Shown: positions 46,707 through 62,887 of the stretch, one piece after another
Numbering within the stretch: position 1 is the stretch's first letter
Layout of the letters: each line of letters opens with the position of its first letter
From: Desulfobacula sp.
Lineage (GTDB): Bacteria; Desulfobacterota; Desulfobacteria; Desulfobacterales; Desulfobacteraceae
Length of the DNA: 64,000 nucleotides
NCBI RefSeq assembly: GCF_014237455.1
Contig: NZ_JABZFL010000096.1
Location: 124,001-188,000 of the forward strand
Direction: 5' to 3'
The notes under the pieces: generated by a model
Database searches by the model: none
Told to the model about the DNA's origin: nothing
The model's input: only the letters and a program-made list of their open reading frames with translations
Position numbers and translations under genes: made by a program

Positions 46707-46782
46707 TGGAGCGGGCAACGAGACTCGAACTCGCGACATCAAGCTTGGGAAGCTTGCACTCTACCAGCTGAGTTATGCCCGC
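46707..46782 (-). tRNA. tRNA-Gly (anticodon CCC)
   Basis: 76 bases including an encoded CCA. The acceptor arm is GCGGGCA/TGCCCGC with discriminator U, the D-arm has AGCTGGTAGAG, and the T-arm has the GTTCGAGTC loop. The anticodon stem CAAGC/GCTTG closes the loop TTCCCAA, giving anticodon CCC (46749-46747 on the reverse strand). It reads GGG codons. It lies 99 bases after the pheT stop on the same strand and may be co-transcribed with it. Confidence 0.95.
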
Positions 46783-54555: not shown

Positions 54556-55233
54556 TTATCTCAAGACATGGTTTTCAAGTTTATACATCCTGTTGCAGAT
54601 CAATCGTGCAATATCCACATCATGACTTATAAAGATACAGGCGGCACAGGTGCTTGCCTGAATTTTTTTAATAACGCGGATAATCTGGGCCTTGGTGGAT
54701 GTATCCAGCATGCTGACGGGCTCATCAAGAACAAGAATGGCAGGAGATATGCTCATGGCCCTTGCAATGGCAATTCTTTGTAATTCTCCCCCGGAAAGCT
54801 GCATGGGATACCGGTAAAGAACATCTTCTGCCAGGCCCACCCTTTCAGCCCATTTTATTATGGTATCTTCTGACACCGGCATTTTATGCAGCCTGCATGG
54901 TTCCATAAGGCTGCGGGAAATTTTCCACTTTGGATTAAAAGTGCTTTCAGGGTGCTGAAAGATCATCTGAATATGTTGCTGCATTCTGCGTCTTTTCCTG
55001 CGTGTCAAAGCCCATATATCCTCGCCCTTGTAAAAAATCTGTCCAAAATCAGGCTTTATGACCCCGGCAAGCATTAAACCAAGCGTAGTTTTTCCTGCTC
55101 CGCTTTTACCGACAATGCCGATTGTTTCACCCGGATTCAGGGAAAATCCAGCATCAACCACAGCAGGAGTTTCTCCTGTTTTAAACCAGGTGCTGTTAAA
55201 TGATTTTTTAAGTTTGACTGCTTTAAGAAGCAT
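54556..55233 (-). CDS. ABC importer ATPase, DppF/NikE-like
   Basis: 225 residues of a nickel/oligopeptide-type ATPase: Walker A 'GIVGKSGAGKTTLGLML', signature LSGGELQR, Walker B AILVLDEPVSMLD and H-loop FISHDVDI. It is shorter than usual DppF (about 320) and lacks the C-terminal oligopeptide (HPY) domain, which is present in the partner. It overlaps the fused permease-ATPase gene by 11 nt and should energise the importer with it. Last gene of the transport operon. Confidence 0.88.
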   Translation of the reverse strand: MLLKAVKLKKSFNSTWFKTGETPAVVDAGFSLNPGETIGIVGKSGAGKTTLGLMLAGVIKPDFGQIFYKGEDIWALTRRKRRRMQQHIQMIFQHPESTFNPKWKISRSLMEPCRLHKMPVSEDTIIKWAERVGLAEDVLYRYPMQLSGGELQRIAIARAMSISPAILVLDEPVSMLDTSTKAQIIRVIKKIQASTCAACIFISHDVDIARLICNRMYKLENHVLR

Positions 55234-57022
55234 AATGCCAGCACCTTACCTTGTGGCCTTTTTGTCTGAAAAGAGGTGGCCTTTGCATGCAGCGCCCGGT
55301 TTTGACATCGCACCTGGCTAAAAAGGGACACCCGGTTTGGAAATCCCCAAGCCTGCCGGGAACGTATCCGCAACGCACCTTGAGTCCTCTGGACGGAAGG
55401 GCTGCAAGAAGAGACTGGGAAAAAGGATGAAACGGGGTTGAAAAAAATGATTCCCGCGGGCCTGATTCCACAATTAGACCTTGAAACATTACCACAATGG
55501 TAGTGGCAAATCTTTTGGCGAACCAGAAATCATGGGTCACGATCACACAAGCCTTGGCAGAGGAATTATTGATGATTTCAAGTATTGCCTTTTTGTTTCC
55601 CATATCCAGCCCTTTGGTGGGCTCATCCGCGAGAAGCACACCGGATTTTGAAAGCATGGCTGATGCAAGCAATAGCCTTTGTTTCATTCCACCACTAAAC
55701 TGATGAGGATAATCAGATATTCTCTTTTTTATATTCTTGATCCCCATATCGGCAAGCAGGGTTTGTGCTTGTTTCAGGGCTGTTTTTTTATCTGTTTTAA
55801 AATGAATAATCTGCCGTTCAGCCACCTGGGAACCGATATTCAGAACAGGATTGAGTCCGTTTCCGGCAGCCTGGGGAACATAGGCTGTTTTAACGCCTCT
55901 TATCCTGCGTATTTCTTCATCTGAAAATCCTGCCATATCACGGCCATGGTATTCTATTGCCCCTGATACCCTTGCACCCTGGGGCAAAAGTTTAAGCAGT
56001 CCGAGCAGCAAAATACTTTTCCCGGCTCCGGTCTCTCCCATGACAGCTATTTTATCTTTTGCACATACGGTTAAATCAACAGAATCAACTGCCATTACCC
56101 TGTTGCCTGCTTTGTTTTTAAATGATATGCAAAGATTTTGGGCCATAAAGATCATATCAGTATCCCGTGAAACAGGGGAATTGTTTTTTCCAGAAAAATT
56201 GTTTTTTTTACCCTGATCAACGGCCTTTATCCCATCTGAATTTAAAAATGCATACCCTGTAAAATTAAATCCGATTACGGCCAGGGATATACAGAGAATT
56301 GGCGGCAGATACCACCACCAAAGCCCGTTGATCAGTCCTGCGCCTTCCATGACATCATGAAGCATTCCTCCCCAGCTTGTGTGATCCGGATCACCCAGAC
56401 CGATAAAGCTTATTCCGGCTTCGGTGAGCATGGCATAGGCCGTAGCCAGTGTTACCTTTGCAAGAATAAGTTCCCGTGTGTTTGGGAGAATGTGGCGAAA
56501 CATGATATATACATCATTGGCACCAAGGCTGCGTGCATTCATGATAAACGGATATTCCCTGAGTTTCAGCACATTGGCCCTGACCACCCGTGCTGTGCCC
56601 GGCCATGAAGAAATGGAAATAACAAAAATCACATTGAATATCCCGGGTCCTATATATGAAACCAGTATGATAATCAGGGGAAGGGCGGGTATCAGCAGAA
56701 AAATATCAGTGATTCTCATGAGCACATCGTCGACAACAGACCTGTAATATCCTGCCGCACAACCGATAACCGTGCCTATAACCGTGGCCAGGACAGCCGC
56801 GACAAAGCCGACCATAAAAGATATCCGCGCGGCATTAATTAATTCACTTAAAATATCCTGGCCGATATTGTTGGTTCCCAGAATATGCCTGCCCCCGGGA
56901 GACAGGTAAGGCGCAAAGAGTTGGTCCATATCAAAAGGCGCAACCTGATCCCCAAAAAAGGTTATGCCCAGGAAAAATAAAAGTATGAGCGTGCCGAATA
57001 TTTCCCTGTTCCTCTTAAACAA
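55223..57022 (-). CDS. fused permease (DppC-like) and ATPase (DppD-like) of an ABC importer
   Basis: 599 residues. Residues 1-265 are a DppC-type permease with N-terminal OppC-like helix, 'HILGTNNIGQDILSELINAARISF' and 'GLGDPDHTSWGGMLHDVM'. After a short linker, about 285-599 form an ATPase: Walker A 'GETGAGKSILLLGLL', signature FSGGMKQRLL, Walker B GVLLADEPTKGLD, and the C-terminal Cys-containing HPY-type tail CPFLARCDVKTGRCM. These are normally two proteins. The ATPase pairs with the NikE-like one encoded next. Overlaps the DppB gene by 8 nt. Substrate is likely a metal, metal chelate or peptide. Confidence 0.9.
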   Translation of the reverse strand: MFKRNREIFGTLILLFFLGITFFGDQVAPFDMDQLFAPYLSPGGRHILGTNNIGQDILSELINAARISFMVGFVAAVLATVIGTVIGCAAGYYRSVVDDVLMRITDIFLLIPALPLIIILVSYIGPGIFNVIFVISISSWPGTARVVRANVLKLREYPFIMNARSLGANDVYIMFRHILPNTRELILAKVTLATAYAMLTEAGISFIGLGDPDHTSWGGMLHDVMEGAGLINGLWWWYLPPILCISLAVIGFNFTGYAFLNSDGIKAVDQGKKNNFSGKNNSPVSRDTDMIFMAQNLCISFKNKAGNRVMAVDSVDLTVCAKDKIAVMGETGAGKSILLLGLLKLLPQGARVSGAIEYHGRDMAGFSDEEIRRIRGVKTAYVPQAAGNGLNPVLNIGSQVAERQIIHFKTDKKTALKQAQTLLADMGIKNIKKRISDYPHQFSGGMKQRLLLASAMLSKSGVLLADEPTKGLDMGNKKAILEIINNSSAKACVIVTHDFWFAKRFATTIVVMFQGLIVESGPRESFFSTPFHPFSQSLLAALPSRGLKVRCGYVPGRLGDFQTGCPFLARCDVKTGRCMQRPPLFRQKGHKVRCWHYAS

Positions 57023-57959
57023 GGGTGCCCCCTTTTCTTACCCTTGGGTCAAGATATGCATGGATAAGTTCTGCCATTGCATTGGCAAAAATTACGCATA
57101 ACGAAAGTATTATAAAACAACCGGAGAGCAGAGGATAATCCCTTGAAAATACAGCTTCATAGATAAGGGTACCCATTCCCTGCCATGAAAAGACAATTTC
57201 AACAAGAAGGGTCCCCCCGACCATGAATCCCAGGTTCAGTGCAACCACAGCAATATAAGGCGGCAGGGCATTTTTCAAAACATGCCGAAACAATACTTGT
57301 CTGTCCGTAAGCCCCCTGGAAAAAGCAGTGACTACATATGTCTCGTGCAGCTCCTGGTGCAGGGAGTTTCTCATGATCATATATTTATAAGCCGTACTGT
57401 GCAGAATCACTGTAATCATGGGCCAAATAGCTGCACTGCCCGTGGAATTTGTTCCAGTAAAAATATCTAAATGAAAGGCAAAAATCAGCAGCATAAGCCC
57501 AAGGCAATAGCCGGGAATGGAATAGAGAAAAAGAAATCCCGGGGTCAGGAATTTATCAAGCATTCCTCTGGTTTTCCATCCTGCAAGAGCGCCCAGGAAT
57601 CCTCCTAAAAGCGTACTGACTGCAACAGCGGGAAAAAGAAGCATCAACGTCCTCTTGAGTCTGAACTTGATAACATGAAAGACCTGGGTCCCATAATGAT
57701 TGGACCATCCCAGATCACATTGGAGGATTTTTTTAAAATAACCCGGATATCGTTTATATACGGGAAGATCAAGATGATGCTCTTTTTTCATTCTTTCCAG
57801 AATCGCAGGTTTCTGGGTGGAAAGATAATAATACCCCTCCTCGCCCAGCAGATGAACAAGAGGATCACCCGGCATCATGTGTATGAAAAAAAAATTAATG
57901 CTCACAATACAGATAAAAGCTGTTGGATACAGAAGAAATTTTTGAAAAATCAGCTTCAT
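57015..57959 (-). CDS. ABC importer permease, DppB/NikB-like
   Basis: 314 residues with six membrane helices. The family motif EAA-like loop is 'YVVTAFSRGLTDRQVLFRHVLKNALPPYI', and the N-terminal 'FFIHMMPGDPL' is typical of DppB. It forms the channel with the permease half of the fusion. The start overlaps the stop of the solute-binding gene by 4 nt; end overlaps the fused gene. Confidence 0.9.
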   Translation of the reverse strand: MKLIFQKFLLYPTAFICIVSINFFFIHMMPGDPLVHLLGEEGYYYLSTQKPAILERMKKEHHLDLPVYKRYPGYFKKILQCDLGWSNHYGTQVFHVIKFRLKRTLMLLFPAVAVSTLLGGFLGALAGWKTRGMLDKFLTPGFLFLYSIPGYCLGLMLLIFAFHLDIFTGTNSTGSAAIWPMITVILHSTAYKYMIMRNSLHQELHETYVVTAFSRGLTDRQVLFRHVLKNALPPYIAVVALNLGFMVGGTLLVEIVFSWQGMGTLIYEAVFSRDYPLLSGCFIILSLCVIFANAMAELIHAYLDPRVRKGGTLV

Positions 57960-59548
57960 TGGTTTATGTTTTTTAAGGAATTCAGGGTAAAACGATTGAT
58001 CAGGCCGCCTTCTATCTGGTTTACAGAAATCCCTGTCCAGTTTTTCCTGTAGGGATAGACATTTTTATTCCAGCAAAGTGCAATTGCAGGCAGGTGGGCT
58101 GCATAATATTCCTGGAGCCTGTAATAGTAATTTTTCACGGTTTGCAAATCAGTCATTGATAAAATATTATCGCACAGGTCGTGAAACAACGGGTCTGTAA
58201 TATTAGCCAGCACCCCGCCTCCCTGCCTGCGGGAGTCAAAATATCCGCTCGCATAACCTGAAGCCATGATCATGCCCCAGGGAGTCGTACGAAACAGTAC
58301 AAGATCAAAGGCTTTGCTCCTTACACTGGTAATCCAGGTAGACAAATCCGTCATCCTGACATTTACATGCAATCCGACTTTTTTCAAATCATGGGTTAAA
58401 AGTTTTACCAGTTGGGCGTCTCCCCATAAATCCGATCGTACCACAAGAGTAAAAGATATCTTATTACCATCCTGATCCTCACGTATGCCGTCGTTATCCC
58501 TGTCCTTTAACCCAAGAGATATTAAAATAGCCTCACATTGCCCGGGATTATATTTAAGGTCCGGCATTTTTTTATATGAAGAAAAAATTGAAGGTACAAA
58601 CCCTGAAGTCGGGATACGGCCTTTCCCCTTAAAAAGACTATTGTTAATTCTCTGATAATTAATTGCAAGACTGACAGCTTTTCTGAATTCTTTTTTTCCA
58701 AGAAAAATATTTTCCAGGTTAAACCCCAGGGCTGCGGGGATTCCCATGGACTCTTCCTGGGCAAATCCTATATTATGATCTTTTGAAAGCCGGGTAAGAT
58801 ATGGTGCAGGATATCCTGAAGCATATTTATAATAAACATCCACCTTGTTTTTCAGGAGGGAAAGGGTCAAAAGATCCATATTCTGGTTTAAAATAAATTC
58901 AATCTGCCCTGTTTCAGGTATTTCCTGATAATATCTGGTATTTTTCTTGAATTTTATTGTTCCTTTTTTTTGGTCATACCCTTCAAAAAGATAAGGCCCG
59001 CATCCGATAACCACATCCCTGCAACTGGTTTTCAGGGGGTCATCAATTTTACTCCATATATGCTCAGGCAGAATACGTATGATAAATCCACTGTTAAAAA
59101 GAAAACGGCTGTATGGTTTTTTTAATGTAAACCTGATTTTCTGTTCGTTGATATTTATCTTGTCAATGAGATCGGGAATCCATGCACAAGAGGGTTGATG
59201 CGAACCAAGATATTCAAAGGTAAATTTTACGTCTTCTGCTGTGACAGGCTTTTCATCATGCCATTTTGCATTGGATACCATGGTGAATTCCCAGGTTTTT
59301 CCATCTTTGCTGCAAGTCCAGGACTCAGCAAGCTGCGGTACAGGGCAAAGTTTTGAATCAAATCTTACCAGTGTGTCATGGGTCATGAGCATGGCAAGAA
59401 TGTTGTAATGATAATCTTTCAGGAGATTCACTATTTTTATGGTCATGGGCGTGCCAATGCGAAGTTTATCTGTTTGAGCTCCTGCCTTGGGAGGCATTGT
59501 AATAAAAATTGCCAAAAAAAGAAAAACAGGGAAAAAATATGATTTCAT
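57956..59548 (-). CDS. periplasmic solute-binding protein, SBP_bac_5 (peptide/nickel type)
   Basis: 530 residues with a Sec signal (about 1-25, AGAQTD at the cleavage region). The SBP_bac_5 layout is clear: 'LAESWTCSKDGKTWEFTMV', 'AKWHDEKPVTAEDVKFTFEYL', and later 'AVSLAINYQRINNSLFKGKGR'. It binds the transported compound in the periplasm. Nothing in the sequence proves metal versus peptide. It follows the TonB-dependent receptor gene, which implies an outer-membrane step for the same substrate. Confidence 0.9.
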   Translation of the reverse strand: MKSYFFPVFLFLAIFITMPPKAGAQTDKLRIGTPMTIKIVNLLKDYHYNILAMLMTHDTLVRFDSKLCPVPQLAESWTCSKDGKTWEFTMVSNAKWHDEKPVTAEDVKFTFEYLGSHQPSCAWIPDLIDKININEQKIRFTLKKPYSRFLFNSGFIIRILPEHIWSKIDDPLKTSCRDVVIGCGPYLFEGYDQKKGTIKFKKNTRYYQEIPETGQIEFILNQNMDLLTLSLLKNKVDVYYKYASGYPAPYLTRLSKDHNIGFAQEESMGIPAALGFNLENIFLGKKEFRKAVSLAINYQRINNSLFKGKGRIPTSGFVPSIFSSYKKMPDLKYNPGQCEAILISLGLKDRDNDGIREDQDGNKISFTLVVRSDLWGDAQLVKLLTHDLKKVGLHVNVRMTDLSTWITSVRSKAFDLVLFRTTPWGMIMASGYASGYFDSRRQGGGVLANITDPLFHDLCDNILSMTDLQTVKNYYYRLQEYYAAHLPAIALCWNKNVYPYRKNWTGISVNQIEGGLINRFTLNSLKNINQ

Positions 59549-59602: not shown

Positions 59603-61606
59603 TTAAAAGTTAAAGCTGATTTCCGCAGACCAAACAGTGCCAGGATCTTCATATATATAGTATGTCTGATAATCCTCATTAAAAAGATTATCAACACTCA
59701 AGGACAAGTCAACCATGTTCACGTATCCCCAGGATACTGGAAAATGTTTTGTGGCTTTTATGTCAACCACAAAAGACTCATCCATCATAAGGTTGGCCCC
59801 ATTGGTATTTTGCGTGGTATTATTGTCATTGGTATGCTGATCACTGAGATACCTTGCAAAAACACCTATACTGTAATTGTTTGGCTTTTTATAATTAATA
59901 CCAAGGTTTGCCTTATGCTTGGGGCTGAAAGGAAGATAATTGCCTTCCTGAGCCGAATTTGCAGGATTTTCGTCAATTGTTGCAAGATTATAGGTATAGT
60001 TTGCATTCAGGGTCCAATTTTCAGTAAGATACCATGCCAATGAAAATTCAGTCCCGTATGATTTTGAACCTCCTATATTCTTGTTAACCCAGATATTACT
60101 CGCATCAAACCAGGATAAAATTTTATCATCCGTATAGTTGTAAAATCCTGCGACATTGGTCTGAATGGCATTCCCGAACCATTTTTCAACCCCAAGTTCC
60201 CATGATTGTGTCTTTTCCGGTTTAAGATCGGGATTGGGCTGCCTGGGGTTTCCCCCGGAAGTTCTGTCATCATAAAGCTGAGCGGATGAAGGCGGCTTAA
60301 ATCCAACTCCATAGTTGGCCCAGACCGATATATCATCAAGAAAATTGTATCTTATTCCAAGCTTGGGACTTAAGTTGTCATCTGTGCGATCAGCCGGACT
60401 GGAATCAGTAAAGTTACTGAAATAATTATCATAATTTTCCCAGTGATCATAGCGAAGTCCGGCCGTAAGCGTCAAGGCTTCAACAGGCTTCCATACATCC
60501 TGAATATATCCGGCAAGGGTTCTGACTTTATACTTGTTTGTCCTCCACGGATCACCTGAGACCCACATGCGATATTCCTGTTCTGTTTCCTGTCTGTTAT
60601 AAAAAAAACCAGCGGTTAAAATATTTTTAGCCCCCACACCCGCAGTAACGGTCAATTCCACCGGTGTTTCATAATAATCAGTATATCTTTTTCTGTTGGG
60701 ATCATAGTTTGTGTTTCCCCTGTCATACAGATGCAAAAGATCATCATAACGAATTCCTGCATATGCCCTCAAAGAAATATCATCTGAAAAGTCGTGATTC
60801 CAGGAAAGTGCGGCAAAATGCCTGTCCCAGTCTCCGCCTACATGGGGTCTTCCCCTTGTGTACCTGTCATTAAAAAAATTATAAAATAAAGATAATTTGG
60901 AGCGTTCATTTAAATCATAGACAGTGTTTACAGAAAATGCTGTCTTATCATAATCGCAGTCATCTATCATGCTAACACTGGGAATCACCTTGTTTGTAAC
61001 AACATTGGTACCATTGGAATCTTCATAAGATGCGGCAAATGCATATCTGAATTTATCAAAACCACCCTGTGCATCTCCTTTCAAGCGCCAGGTATCAAAA
61101 CTGCCAAAGCCGACCCCAAGGCTGCCTTTTTTTTCTTTTTTTCCTTCTTTAAGAATTACATTTATAACACCACCGTTGGCATTAGCGCCGTACAGCGCTG
61201 ATGCAGGTCCGCGTATGATTTCCACTCTTTCAATATTACCCGCAGGAATTGCCTGGGTGATCTCCCAATTTGTGGGAATACCGTTTACAAGGACAACTGT
61301 TGCATCGCTTCCAAGTCCGCGGATATTGGGATATGCAGGGAACGGGGCATATGCTCGCCGAAGTGTTATCCCGGGGACAGAGCGCAATACATCACCAATG
61401 TCTCCATTGGGTAGATTCTGAAACTCAATCTGTTCAGAATCTATAATGGTGACCGAAGCAGGAATATCTTTAACAGAAGTTTCATATTTGGTGGCTGTAA
61501 CTACGACCTGATCAAGTTTGATGACCTTGTCCTCCGTGGCCCATACCGACGGCATAATCATCAAACTTAAAACAATTGGTATTAATACACGTATTGATTT
61601 TTTCAT
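59603..61606 (-). CDS. TonB-dependent outer-membrane receptor
   Basis: 667 residues with a signal peptide (about 1-23, cleaved near VWATE) and the plug motif 'VVVTATKYETSVKDIPASVTII', then 'VLRSVPGITLRRAY', 'VLVNGIPTNWEITQAIPAGNIERVEIIRGPASALYGANANGGVINVI' (shown in part; key GPASALYGANANGGVIN). The C-terminal beta-barrel ends with WSAEISFNF, whose last Phe suits BAM insertion. It takes up a large or scarce solute using TonB energy. The family resembles BtuB/siderophore receptors, but the neighbouring peptide/nickel-type importer points to a metal complex. Leader region upstream is structured. Confidence 0.93.
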   Translation of the reverse strand: MKKSIRVLIPIVLSLMIMPSVWATEDKVIKLDQVVVTATKYETSVKDIPASVTIIDSEQIEFQNLPNGDIGDVLRSVPGITLRRAYAPFPAYPNIRGLGSDATVVLVNGIPTNWEITQAIPAGNIERVEIIRGPASALYGANANGGVINVILKEGKKEKKGSLGVGFGSFDTWRLKGDAQGGFDKFRYAFAASYEDSNGTNVVTNKVIPSVSMIDDCDYDKTAFSVNTVYDLNERSKLSLFYNFFNDRYTRGRPHVGGDWDRHFAALSWNHDFSDDISLRAYAGIRYDDLLHLYDRGNTNYDPNRKRYTDYYETPVELTVTAGVGAKNILTAGFFYNRQETEQEYRMWVSGDPWRTNKYKVRTLAGYIQDVWKPVEALTLTAGLRYDHWENYDNYFSNFTDSSPADRTDDNLSPKLGIRYNFLDDISVWANYGVGFKPPSSAQLYDDRTSGGNPRQPNPDLKPEKTQSWELGVEKWFGNAIQTNVAGFYNYTDDKILSWFDASNIWVNKNIGGSKSYGTEFSLAWYLTENWTLNANYTYNLATIDENPANSAQEGNYLPFSPKHKANLGINYKKPNNYSIGVFARYLSDQHTNDNNTTQNTNGANLMMDESFVVDIKATKHFPVSWGYVNMVDLSLSVDNLFNEDYQTYYIYEDPGTVWSAEISFNF

Positions 61607-61622
61607 CGTTCAGTCTATCTCC

Positions 61623-61779
61623 TTAGTTATTTTTAATAAACAAATTGTTGACAGACTGAAGCTTCCGAATAAATTTTGATTTTATGAACCATATTTGCTA
61701 TGATTCATTTTCGGTGGAAGCTTCTGCCGACAACGTGGGAAGACAGCTTTGAACCTTGGTCTGGATCGGCTGTCTTCCC
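61623..61779 (-). ncRNA. structured 5' leader of the receptor operon (candidate riboswitch or cis-regulatory RNA)
   Basis: On the reverse strand the leader contains a 11-bp hairpin (GGGAAGACAGC at 61779-61769 with its complement at 61747-61737, as read on that strand), then a closing stem GAAGCTTCC/GGAAGCTTC (61716-61724 and 61658-61666). Inside the latter lies a 9-bp stem ATGAAT/CCAT-type pairing (61700-61708 with 61684-61692) with one U-G pair. Outer GTTG/CAAC pairing extends it. AAGGAGA for the receptor follows. I cannot assign it to a known class: there is no B12 box and only a loose resemblance to the Moco RNA. Confidence 0.5.
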
Positions 61780-61793
61780 ATCCCTCTTTACAT

Positions 61794-61848
61794 AAAAAAA
61801 GCCGCGAAAACACTGTTTCCGTAAAAGAAACAAGCCTTCGTGGCTTTT
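61794..61848 (-). terminator. strong hairpin terminator upstream of the receptor leader
   Basis: AAAAGCCGCGAA (61797-61808) pairs with TTCGTGGCTTTT (61837-61848) with one G-T pair, and an inner GTTTC/GAAAC stem folds inside. On the reverse strand it is followed by seven T residues. It lies between the putative promoter and the receptor gene and so could act as an attenuator; it could also be the terminator of the FmdE transcript. Confidence 0.7.
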
Positions 61849-61919
61849 AGTTATCAATACAAATCACAAATAATACAGATTCAAAGCAAAAGAGTGTAAG
61901 GCTTTCTTAGCCTGACTAT

Positions 61920-61934
61920 AAGTAAACTTTACTT
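61920..61934. promoter_or_regulatory. 15-bp palindrome, candidate operator
   Basis: AAGTAAACTTTACTT is a perfect inverted repeat around one central base. It lies 14-28 nt downstream of a candidate -10 on the reverse strand, near the expected transcription start, where a repressor could block the receptor operon. It does not match Fur, NikR or MntR boxes that I recall. Confidence 0.45.
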
Positions 61935-61947
61935 CAAATAACTTTAT

Positions 61948-61976
61948 AATTTAAAAAAAAGAAGGCTTTTTGTCAA
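61948..61976 (-). promoter_or_regulatory. sigma70-like promoter for the receptor operon
   Basis: On the reverse strand TTGACA (61976-61971) is a consensus -35; after 17 nt there is TAAATT (61953-61948), a moderate -10. It is downstream of the FmdE-like stop (62075), so the receptor operon can be transcribed on its own. Leader length would be about 330 nt. Confidence 0.5.
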
Positions 61977-62074
61977 GCAAAATCAATCTATTTTGTTCCA
62001 GACATTTAAAGTGTGCGGAAAAATGTCCTGTAAACAGCATGGGAATAAAAAAGCCGGACAGACTGACTTTATTT

Positions 62075-62686
62075 TTAATTATTGCCGTCCAGGCATCCCT
62101 GACAGACCTTTTTCCCATCTATGGTTTCCATCTTTGTGGACATGGCTGGTTCACCACAGCGTGTGCATTGTGTCGAGGGTTCGATCCGCGCCTTTTCCGG
62201 TATGGGAACCTTTGCCGGGGTTATTAAGAATAACTCATCTACGGGTTTTCCCAGAATTTCAAAAGCTTTCTTTGTTTTAAGTGCTTCAAGCCTTGCAAGT
62301 TCCTCTTGCGTGGCAATATTGTTCCTCTGTTTTTCAAACAATTCCTTTTGCTCTTCACTCATACTTGGGTTAGGCCTAAATTTTGGTGAAATCCGAACTC
62401 CCTGTCCTGTTTTCCTGCTGAAAAATGTAAATGCCAACTTTCCATAGTCTTTATAGATAAAATTGCCTTTGCCAAAGGTGCAGCCGGTTAAGACCTGAAC
62501 AGCATCCACGCCGCAGGCATCATTTTCAACAATGGCGACAAGTTCCTCATCCTGAGCACGGTTCTCCTTAAGCCACTCAAGCGCAGCATTTGCAGCTTTA
62601 TACCCAAAAACCAGGCCGCCACAAATGTGCCCGTGAAAATCAACACATTTTTTAAAATCATCCGTCATCAATTCATCTCTATCCAT
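62075..62686 (-). CDS. FmdE family protein with C-terminal zinc ribbon
   Basis: 203 residues from the ATG at 62686; a TTG at 62695 and an ATG at 62668 are alternatives, none with a good ribosome-binding site. The FmdE-type core is clear: 'CVDFHGHICGGLVFGYKAA' and 'NDACGVDAVQVLTGCTFGKGN' with Cys/His ligands. The C-terminal 'STQCTRCGEPAMSTKM...KKVCQGC' is a four-Cys zinc ribbon. FmdE proteins are linked with molybdenum/tungsten enzymes or metal handling; the function is unknown. Adjacent to TonB receptor and ABC importer on the same strand, so a metal-uptake context is likely. Confidence 0.85.
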   Translation of the reverse strand: MDRDELMTDDFKKCVDFHGHICGGLVFGYKAANAALEWLKENRAQDEELVAIVENDACGVDAVQVLTGCTFGKGNFIYKDYGKLAFTFFSRKTGQGVRISPKFRPNPSMSEEQKELFEKQRNNIATQEELARLEALKTKKAFEILGKPVDELFLITPAKVPIPEKARIEPSTQCTRCGEPAMSTKMETIDGKKVCQGCLDGNN

Positions 62687-62887
62687 AAAATTCAAATTAA
62701 TATGGTTAGGAATGCCTTGTCAAGGAAATTAGAAAAAACCGGCTCAAGCGTATGCATCTTTTTTAAAATCAAACTTCCTGTTTTTTCAAACAAATCGATT
62801 TATCGGATCGACAAAAAATGTTATCCATAATATCATTTAAATAAAATTATACTGATTTAATCATGAATTTATCAATGGAAAACAAGC

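Follow-up and report, generated by a model that had tools for sequence, protein, structure and literature searches.

A putative nickel-responsive tandem-hairpin leader RNA preceding uptake and cofactor genes in anaerobic bacteria

The window, i.e., the whole 64,000-nucleotide stretch of Desulfobacula sp. DNA that was analysed, carries on its minus strand a leader and all genes of a locus which extends from an FmdE-family protein via a TonB-dependent receptor to a transporter of the Nik/Dpp type (Table 1). Orthologues of the receptor occur in genomes G033 (64%) and G013 (57-65%), and none of the window's transporter proteins scored above any NCBIfam nickel cut-off. A first-pass annotation had proposed that an attenuation-type leader RNA precedes these genes and that they take up a scarce metal complex, which was borne out, on the minus strand. 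The alternative that the leader is merely the 3' terminator of the FmdE gene was rejected: the receptor has a promoter-like site of its own in front of the terminator, and the same leader is retained by two receptor orthologues that lack an upstream FmdE gene (L002/L074 and L003/L066).

Table 1. Features of the receptor locus, with positions in the window, listed in the direction of transcription.
Feature	Position	Strand	Basis or remark
FmdE-family protein	62075-62695	-	PF02663; upstream of promoter
Leader	61607-62074	-	between FmdE gene and TonB receptor gene
Sigma-70-like promoter of receptor operon, TTGACA-17-TAAATT	61948-61976	-	consensus scan, 10/12 matches
H1, 5-bp hairpin AGGCU-AAGAA-AGCCU, proposed first antiterminator hairpin	61899-61913	-	covariation; -5.8 kcal/mol (fold of 61898-61914)
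Intrinsic terminator: 13-pair outer stem, inner hairpin H3, 7-U tract	61794-61848	-	folding
H2, hairpin AAGCC-ACGAA-GGCUU, overlapping terminator 5' arm	61832-61846	-	-5.0 kcal/mol; conservation, covariation
H3, apical hairpin of terminator, no GAA loop here	61815-61831	-	folding, related sites
Post-terminator hairpin GGGAAGACAGC...GCUGUCUUCCC	61737-61779	-	seen in 4/107 related sites, own included
Inverted repeat GAAGCUUCC...GGAAGCUUC	61658-61724	-	after terminator
Putative stem UUCAGUC...GACUGAA adjoining ribosome-binding site AAGGAGA	61609-61660	-	folding
TonB-dependent receptor, first gene of controlled operon	59603-61606	-	PF07715 and PF00593
SBP_bac_5 binding protein	57956-59548	-	best NCBIfam model nikA, 129 of 393 bits, below cut-off
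DppB/NikB-type permease	57015-57959	-	below NCBIfam cut-offs
DppC/NikC-type permease fused to OppD/NikD-type ATPase	55223-57022	-	below NCBIfam cut-offs
NikE/OppF-type ATPase	54556-55233	-	below NCBIfam cut-offs

The leader folds far better than expected for its composition, as 379 nt of it gave a z-score of -7.47 and 0 of 100 shuffles folded equally well. Its promoter-like site is weak by itself, since 7 such sites occur in the stretch compared to 3.8 (sd 2.3) in shuffles. By eye and uncounted, a TTGACA-like hexamer was seen in front of H1 in many related leaders. Downstream of the promoter-like site, the two small hairpins H1 and H2 carry loops of the same class, (A)NGAA, and the 15-nt palindrome noted earlier, AAGCCACGAAGGCTT, is probably H2 within the 5' arm of the terminator. 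The terminator segment 61798-61848 folded alone yielded -24.0 kcal/mol. At 37 of the 107 related sites, a set from which 8 duplicate rows and 5 rows lacking a usable H2 had been dropped, H3 also has a GAA loop. The claim of further conserved stems held for one post-terminator stem, which recurs at four of these sites; a fifth pattern match, at L129, had a different shape. Most of the stems so proposed, located after the terminator, did not hold up: neither the inverted repeat nor the stem next to the ribosome-binding site was seen by eye in two orthologous leaders. The conserved parts of the leader are H1, H2 and the terminator.

No Rfam family matched at the element at gathering score, whether in the window or at any of 32 further loci that were scanned. 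A Moco/tungsten cofactor match, which had been considered, was found neither in the window nor in the leader. Searching the leader against Rfam 15 at E up to 10 returned four sub-threshold matches, none to Moco or NiCo: trpB (21 of 59 bits, overlapping the terminator on the opposite strand), a plant snoRNA, IRE_I (14.7 of 34 bits, covering H3) and StyR-143. All four were far below gathering and were rejected as chance matches.

Conserved hairpins recur in related genomes with compensatory changes, whereas a lack of conservation would have spoken against the first-pass annotation. H1 had not been part of the first search pattern. Among 17 rows, representing 16 sites with one in both orientations and excluding G045/L078, whose match falls within a gene, and G002/L070, a short perfect hairpin, H1 with a GAA loop occurred in 12, and each of 63 other cores in at most one; at exact-pattern sites of any taxon, such an H1 was present in 38 of 84 rows, which include reverse readings, and the next core in 4. 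In an alignment of 76 sites fitted to the model, H1 covaries, with changes on both sides at 6/6 pairs and 95.6% of the cells paired; three of 14 leaders had been dropped from the seed alignment. The H1 loops comprise AGAA, TGAA, AAGAA, ATGAA, AGGAA, CGAA, ACGAA and TTGAA. At sites with a good H1, it is separated from H2 by 27 to about 79 nt, and the linker is AU-rich and unconserved.

H2 and the terminator share sequence, H2 forming the 5' arm of the terminator, and the two structures are therefore mutually exclusive. The terminator 5' arm of H2 is fixed and the 3' arm drifts from C to U, resulting in G-U pairs in 18, 24 and 31 of 76 sites at three pairs. In addition, positions 1 and 11 of H2 covary, as A at position 1 occurred only with U at position 11 (7/7; Fisher 1.8e-5 with relatedness ignored). 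When folding of the growing RNA was simulated in silico, H2 formed first and the terminator later.

These data bear on another reading, according to which the element merely insulates neighbouring genes or strongly terminates transcription between them, with upstream hairpins occurring by chance. Hairpins followed by U tracts are common, the promoter consensus alone is weak, and palindromic terminators read on the wrong strand reach 48.7 bits (R1) and 58.7 bits (R2), close to weak model matches. Because of these scores, weak matches, including many at the phylum level, may be plain terminators. However, the terminator/H2 pattern read backwards had 0 matches in 97 genomes (own included), 13 of which have forward matches, and the control cores stayed far below H1 in both tests. 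Moreover, of 39 exact-pattern sites that have H1 and are followed by 600 nt or more of sequence, 37 have a metal-set gene among the first three genes, a count for which the reference set derives partly from the same loci. Chance hairpins around a terminator are, therefore, a most improbable explanation.

Within the order, models of the element identified it in 116 of 194 genomes when matches with E no higher than 0.01 were counted, 75 of these having strong matches (E up to 1e-4). A search of the phylum found it in 44/297 genomes with an E-value limit of 0.001, and 37 of the 44 lie outside the order. Cultured sulfate reducers that have the element include Desulfonema magnum and Desulfamplus magnetovallimortis. 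Matches to the exact terminator/H2 pattern extend to Nitrospirota, Spirochaetota, Bacillota and Chloroflexota, where H1 is often undetectable: it was not detected in most Bacillota exact-pattern sites nor in the Chloroflexota site, and a good-scoring H1 was missing in 29 of the 107 related sites. As exact-pattern sites without H1 still precede metal-set genes in 23/33 cases, H1 may be dispensable or undetected in some sites. The genome of the window has three element sites. One precedes the TonB/Nik-like operon, another a Peripla_BP_2/FecCD/ATPase/FmdE-like operon and the third a DUF4198-CbiM/NikM-NikL-CbiQ-CbiO-like operon, the last being assigned by reading and likeness rather than by family scan; a DNA search of this genome with the whole leader matched only the leader itself. 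Literature searches, which left most subscription journals outside their scope, yielded no description of the element, which is not proof of its being unpublished.

To assess which genes follow the element, 86 first downstream proteins were obtained from the 107 sites, omitting four sites with repeated genes and ORFs below 90 aa, and 113 of 134 second and third proteins were taken in. The first proteins include 21 TonB plug, 12 DUF4198, 9 DUF3450, 8 FmdE, 8 Peripla_BP_2, 4 methyltransferase and 3 SBP_bac_5 proteins. ExbB was also seen among the genes downstream. In other genomes, NikL, NikA, LarB, LarC and LarE were identified downstream above curated cut-offs. Among the metals initially suggested, nickel is thus favoured by NikA, NikL and LarB/C/E, and molybdenum and tungsten lost ground with the missing Moco match. 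A molybdenum, tungsten or cobalt/cobalamin leader would be in line with the FmdE name, which comes from a molybdenum enzyme operon, with the CbiM-type proteins at L166 and L157, which pass cut-offs named 'cobalt transporter CbiM', and with a cobaltochelatase-like ATPase downstream at L170. This reading appears very unlikely in view of the above-cut-off nickel genes and the leader's lack of a match to Moco or any other Rfam family, and the three cobalamin riboswitches of the same genome serve other sites, away from the element. Nickel would be the regulated metal, with cobalt a lesser possibility. In sum, the results suggest that the element, which has no Rfam match in the loci scanned, is an RNA switch situated before genes for nickel uptake and nickel cofactors in many anaerobes.

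Based on these computed features, we consider it likely, with a probability of roughly 0.7, that the leader is a nickel-responsive tandem-hairpin antitermination leader, i.e., that it attenuates transcription within a nickel regulon. RNA synthesis would start behind the promoter, and H1 would fold, followed by synthesis of the AU-rich stretch and then of H2. With H2 unheld, the rest of the terminator would be made, H2 would give way to the longer stem of the terminator and RNA polymerase would stop. An RNA-binding factor active in nickel shortage would instead hold H1 and H2, presumably by binding both loops, and thereby block the terminator, so that the receptor and the Nik/Dpp-type transporter are made; nickel would be the signal and its shortage the ON state. 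Alternatively, the RNA itself might bind Ni2+ or a nickel cofactor via the GAA loops as a true riboswitch without any protein. The same loops recur in several phyla, and NikR, ANTAR proteins, CsrA, FmdE and CooT are each missing from some element-bearing genomes, as would be expected in this case. However, unlike in a compact aptamer, conservation is limited to the letters of two or three tiny loops, which lie at widely variable distance with an unconserved linker, and a ligand on H1 and H2 would probably turn uptake ON, opposite to the response expected if nickel itself were bound. A ligand-binding riboswitch is therefore possible, if improbable, and less likely than a protein-bound antiterminator.

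For such an antiterminator protein, clustering of neighbouring genes gave no recognised regulator gene in a first round, with DUF3842 present in 4 genomes; in a second round with more loci, CooT (PF10133) emerged. CooT, which is annotated as a CO dehydrogenase accessory protein and which binds one Ni2+ per dimer, is encoded downstream of the element in several genomes, and H1, H2 and CooT occur together in Desulfobacterota, Nitrospirota and Spirochaetota. The protein at L273 models onto the CooT structures 6fan (Z 12.1, rmsd 1.3, 62 residues) and 5n76 (Z 9.2, rmsd 2.3, 61 residues); a relation to the Sm-like fold was absent among the matches listed in the fold search, which excludes nothing. 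CooT was not present in every element-bearing genome: it was found in 108 of the 116 within the order, the 8 lacking it all having strong elements, and in 21 of 31 pattern-bearing genomes elsewhere, being absent from 10. The check outside Desulfobacterota covered 32 of 80 loci, chosen by title, with two from covered bins and bins of unclear group omitted. CooT also occurs in 59 of the 78 genomes of the order without an element call. Since the bins do not contain complete genomes and diverged forms could have escaped detection, these absences weaken the claim for CooT rather than refute it. An RNA role of CooT has reportedly been examined earlier and was not supported. We regard CooT, a small nickel-binding protein, as the best candidate for the factor, possibly together with its gene neighbour DUF3842. 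More tentatively, CooT, alone or with DUF3842, might be an RNA-binding nickel sensor, the apo-dimer of which would grip two or three (A)NGAA hairpins and block termination in operons for nickel uptake and nickel cofactors until released by Ni2+.

Several other proteins were considered. NikR (found in 3/194 genomes of the order, with 0 matches in the window's genome) and FmdE (with an E-value limit of 1e-6, not matched in the element-bearing genomes G039, G049, G092 and G113) were rejected as universal factors, as they are lacking in element-bearing genomes. CsrA binds ANGGA hairpin loops and is able to bridge distant sites, and ANGAA differs from its motif by one letter, so that a CsrA-type dimer might bridge both hairpins. 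This is extremely improbable, as CsrA was found in only 37 of the 116 element-bearing genomes and is absent from that of the window, and GGA is missing from most loops (6 AGGAA among 82 good H1 loops). An ANTAR protein of the NasR/EutV type would be suggested by the same architecture, in which the second of two small hairpins shares sequence with the terminator (PMC3369931). However, ANTAR target RNAs have six-nt loops with A1 and G4 and the eut leaders a spacing of 5-12 nt (PMC3369931), whereas the element has NGAA or ANGAA loops and exceeds this spacing. ANTAR proteins occur in 105/194 genomes, including one protein in that of the window, and more often in element-bearing than in other genomes (71/116 vs 34/78; p 0.019), yet 45 of the 116 element-bearing genomes had no match. 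These frequencies do not fit ANTAR as the general factor, and we consider it highly unlikely as the antiterminator.

In anaerobes, hydrogenases, CO dehydrogenase/acetyl-CoA synthase and lactate racemases are limited by the supply of nickel, and in the order, where NikR is almost absent, nickel uptake would need another control. The element would offer a concrete explanation at the RNA level. Uncharacterised receptors, methyltransferases, FmdE proteins and DUF proteins become likely nickel genes through it, and it represents a candidate RNA target for CooT. If the CooT reading is true, transcription antitermination would control a nickel regulon in three or more phyla, which would explain a nickel-binding family of unsettled function.

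In comparison with known systems, the element resembles NiCo and cobalamin riboswitches as RNA leaders of metal or corrinoid genes, but differs by the lack of an Rfam match in the loci scanned. The NikR regulon of delta-proteobacteria, predicted to control the nikMNQO and nikKMLQO nickel transporters (PMC545781), likewise concerns nickel transport; NikR, however, is a DNA-binding repressor and is present in just those three genomes of the order. The ANTAR target RNAs (eut, nas and ami, with EutV, NasR and AmiR) likewise have conserved letters in their loops and a second hairpin whose 5' strand also belongs to the intrinsic terminator, whereas the element has loops of 4-5 nt, a longer spacing and nickel-type genes. 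LoaP/dfn antitermination also combines a leader hairpin, in dfn with a UNCG loop (PMC12691694), with a downstream intrinsic terminator; in the element, by contrast, the terminator arm itself is a conserved hairpin.

The leader upstream of the TonB receptor carries an element that recurs in many genomes: a genuine and widely distributed RNA that regulates metal-uptake genes in cis. All genes of interest at the locus are encoded on the minus strand, and the element consists of a small hairpin (H1), an AU-rich stretch and a terminator that harbors a second hairpin (H2).

Features of the locus and its leader, in window positions
Feature	Position	Strand	Remark
FmdE gene	62075-62695	-	
Leader	61607-62074	-	
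Promoter-like site	61976-61948	-	in leader
H1	61899-61913	-	small hairpin, AGGCU-AAGAA-AGCCU
Terminator	61848-61794	-	with 7-U tract
H2	61846-61832	-	AAGCC-ACGAA-GGCUU, self-contained inside terminator 5' arm
Post-terminator hairpin	61737-61779	-	
TonB receptor gene	59603-61606	-	
SBP_bac_5, DppB, DppC-ATPase fusion, ATPase	3' of TonB receptor, ending at 54556	-	
DppC-ATPase fusion	55223-57022	-	DppC/NikC-type permease and OppD/NikD-type ATPase in a single fused reading frame
tRNA	46710-46782	-	sole Rfam gathering match in window

The 379-nt leader folded far more stably than shuffled sequences (z -7.47). Computed folding yielded -5.8 kcal/mol for H1 alone, -5.0 for H2 alone and -24.0 for the terminator alone. 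When growing RNA lengths were folded in silico, H1 and H2 formed early, and the terminator displaced H2 after synthesis of its 3' arm. The element most likely acts as a tandem-hairpin antiterminator.

Close relatives of the receptor were found in two of the 57 other genomes first searched (G033, 64%; G013, 57-65% in two pieces), where the upstream genes showed no likeness to FmdE. Both orthologous leaders retained the terminator, AAAGCCRYGAAGGC...GGCTTTTTT, as well as H1, and further receptor relatives (47-64%) sit behind the element at L110, L150 and L183. A terminator pattern lacking any H1 matched 13 of 97 genomes, own genome counted, while the reversed pattern matched 0 of 97; an intragenic match (L078) and a short perfect hairpin (L070) were set aside. 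The genes behind the pattern sites encode TonB receptors, FmdE-domain proteins, binding-protein transporters, ExbB-type proteins, Peripla_BP_2, DUF4198 with CbiM-like proteins, and SAM methyltransferases.

For H1, it was determined which of the 64 trinucleotides occupies the 3' end of the upstream hairpin loop. In leaders collected with the H1-free terminator pattern, the core was GAA in 12 of 17 rows and every other core occurred at most once. A covariance model built from 11 leaders (R1) served to find further sites, and a GAA-loop H1 was present in 82 of its 107 sites (other cores ≤3), a set enriched by the training of R1 on H1. Of 84 rows from exact-pattern sites of any taxon, which include reverse readings of palindromic sites, 38 displayed it, against 4 for the next core. 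In 76 aligned sites, two-sided changes occurred at all six H1 pairs (46, 42, 32, 29, 43 and 13 sequences; these statistics ignore relatedness), and 95.6% of the H1 cells were paired in an alignment made with the model. When the partners were offset by one to three columns, whole-structure pairing fell from 95.3% to 34-55%. By this comparative sequence evidence, H1 is a real conserved hairpin.

The 5' arm of the terminator is nearly invariant, whereas at three pairs the 3' partner has changed from C to U in 18, 24 and 31 of 76 sites. Changes in both arms would be acceptable if the sequence served only as a terminator, so this bias fits a second role for the 5' arm. Positions 1 and 11 of H2 are not partners in the outer terminator stem, yet they covary (A-U 7/7, G-C 82, G-U 18; Fisher 1.8e-5, relatedness ignored), and judged from the sequences H2 is likely a real hairpin. 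At 37 of 107 sites the loop of the terminator's apical hairpin (H3) likewise has the GAA core; the next most frequent core reached 9. In some leaders the H1-like hairpin is duplicated, or all three hairpins have GAA loops (L104 and L133 in G153, L209, L212, L216). A post-terminator hairpin, GGGAAGRCRGY...GCYGYCTTCCC with a loop of ~22 nt, occurred in 4 of 107 related leaders (the window, L073, L145, L174).

R1 matched 116 of 194 genomes of the Desulfobacterales at E ≤0.01 (76 of 123 among good genomes), with a best E ≤1e-4 in 75 of the 116. R2, a model built from the 76 sites, matched 44 of 297 genomes of the Desulfobacterota at E ≤0.001, of which 37 do not belong to the order. As wrong-strand terminators score up to 48.7 bits (R1) and 58.7 bits (R2), weaker model matches are individually insecure. 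The exact pattern occurred in 98 stretches among 84,980 species. The majority of the 80 loci listed from these belong to Desulfobacterota, the others to Nitrospirota, Treponema and another spirochaete, Phascolarctobacterium, Acetobacterium, Alkalibaculum, Robinsoniella, Ruminococcaceae, Eubacteriaceae and an Anaerolineae bin. H1 could be recognized clearly in one Phascolarctobacterium and in several loci from Nitrospirota and spirochaetes, and was doubtful or missing in the remaining Bacillota loci and the Anaerolineae locus. No Rfam family overlapped the element in the window or the other loci scanned.

Pfam assigned the first downstream proteins (n=86) to TonB plug (21), DUF4198 (12), DUF3450 (9), FmdE (8), Peripla_BP_2 (8), methyltransferase (4) and SBP_bac_5 (3), and the second and third (n=113) to MotA_ExbB (17), FecCD (9), BPD_transp_1 (8) and CbiM (7). 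A metal-set gene was among the first three at 37 of the 39 exact-pattern sites that have H1 and sufficient downstream sequence and at 23 of 33 without H1, the reference set stemming partly from the same loci. The metal served is most likely nickel. Curated cut-offs were exceeded by a NikL family nickel/cobalt ECF subunit (L166), NikA (L271, 599 versus 393 bits), LarE, LarB and LarC (L331), LarB and LarC (L275), LarB (L268) and a hydrogenase maturation protease (L182). Against nickel, CbiM-type proteins at L166 and L157 pass cut-offs named 'cobalt transporter CbiM', and a cobaltochelatase-like ATPase occurs at L170. However, CbiM and NikM are closely related, and the Lar and NikA assignments therefore outweigh the CbiM names; PMC545781 places nikM in this family. 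The SBP_bac_5 protein of the window is NikA-like but under the cut-off, and nickel is thus assigned there through regulon membership. Class I SAM methyltransferases occur in metal operons behind the element (L065, L069, L072 and L329 by Pfam; L271, L298 and L303 by likeness) and may modify a metal-binding small molecule.

Besides the window site, two elements in the own genome precede a Peripla_BP_2/FecCD/ATPase/FmdE-like operon and a DUF4198-CbiM/NikM-NikL-CbiQ-CbiO-like operon, the genes of the latter named by reading. None of its three cobalamin riboswitches lies at an element, indicating separate regulons; one is located just 3' of the Peripla_BP_2/FecCD/ATPase/FmdE-like operon, before a cobT-like gene (named by reading). 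The own genome has no NikR match, and across the order 3 of 194 genomes have one; in other delta-proteobacteria, NikR has been predicted to control nikMNQO (PMC545781).

The factor acting on the element is probably a new one. CsrA was rejected as general factor, being present in only 37 of 116 element-bearing genomes and absent from the own genome, as was FmdE, without a match at E ≤1e-6 in element-bearing G039, G049, G092 and G113. Clustering of neighbor genes yielded CooT and its partner DUF3842 (PF12953) as candidates. Each CooT dimer binds one Ni2+, and the protein adopts an Sm-like fold. The confidently predicted model of the L273 protein (pLDDT 91.6) matches solved CooT structures. The element is followed by DUF3842-CooT in G138, G219 and G099 (weak element, 49.7 bits), by methyltransferase-DUF3842-CooT at L069, by FmdE-like-CooT in G105 and by CooT in a Nitrospirae bin with a weak H1, while CooT lies upstream at L296, L328 and L205. 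DUF3842 recurs beside CooT at L069, L148, L155, L296, L328, L408, L409 and L416, also L128 and L275. In the own genome the pair lies on a different contig, where the 5.3 kb inspected contained no element call. Within the order, CooT was present in 108 of 116 genomes with the element versus 59 of the remaining 78 (p 0.0011). In other phyla, 21 of 31 genomes with the pattern had CooT; of the 14 control genomes two had it, both archaeal. However, all eight element-bearing genomes of the order without CooT possess strong elements, and the search found no CooT in Phascolarctobacterium/Acidaminococcaceae, Ruminococcaceae, Eubacteriaceae and Anaerolineae carriers. Thus, CooT cannot be the sole factor unless genes were missed.

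ANTAR targets, as described in PMC3369931, share the layout of the element. The element differs from them in its loops and hairpin spacing, and an ANTAR match is lacking in 45 of the 116 genomes with the element, which argues against an ANTAR protein as general factor. The tandem-hairpin architecture is known, whereas the loops and the regulon are new.
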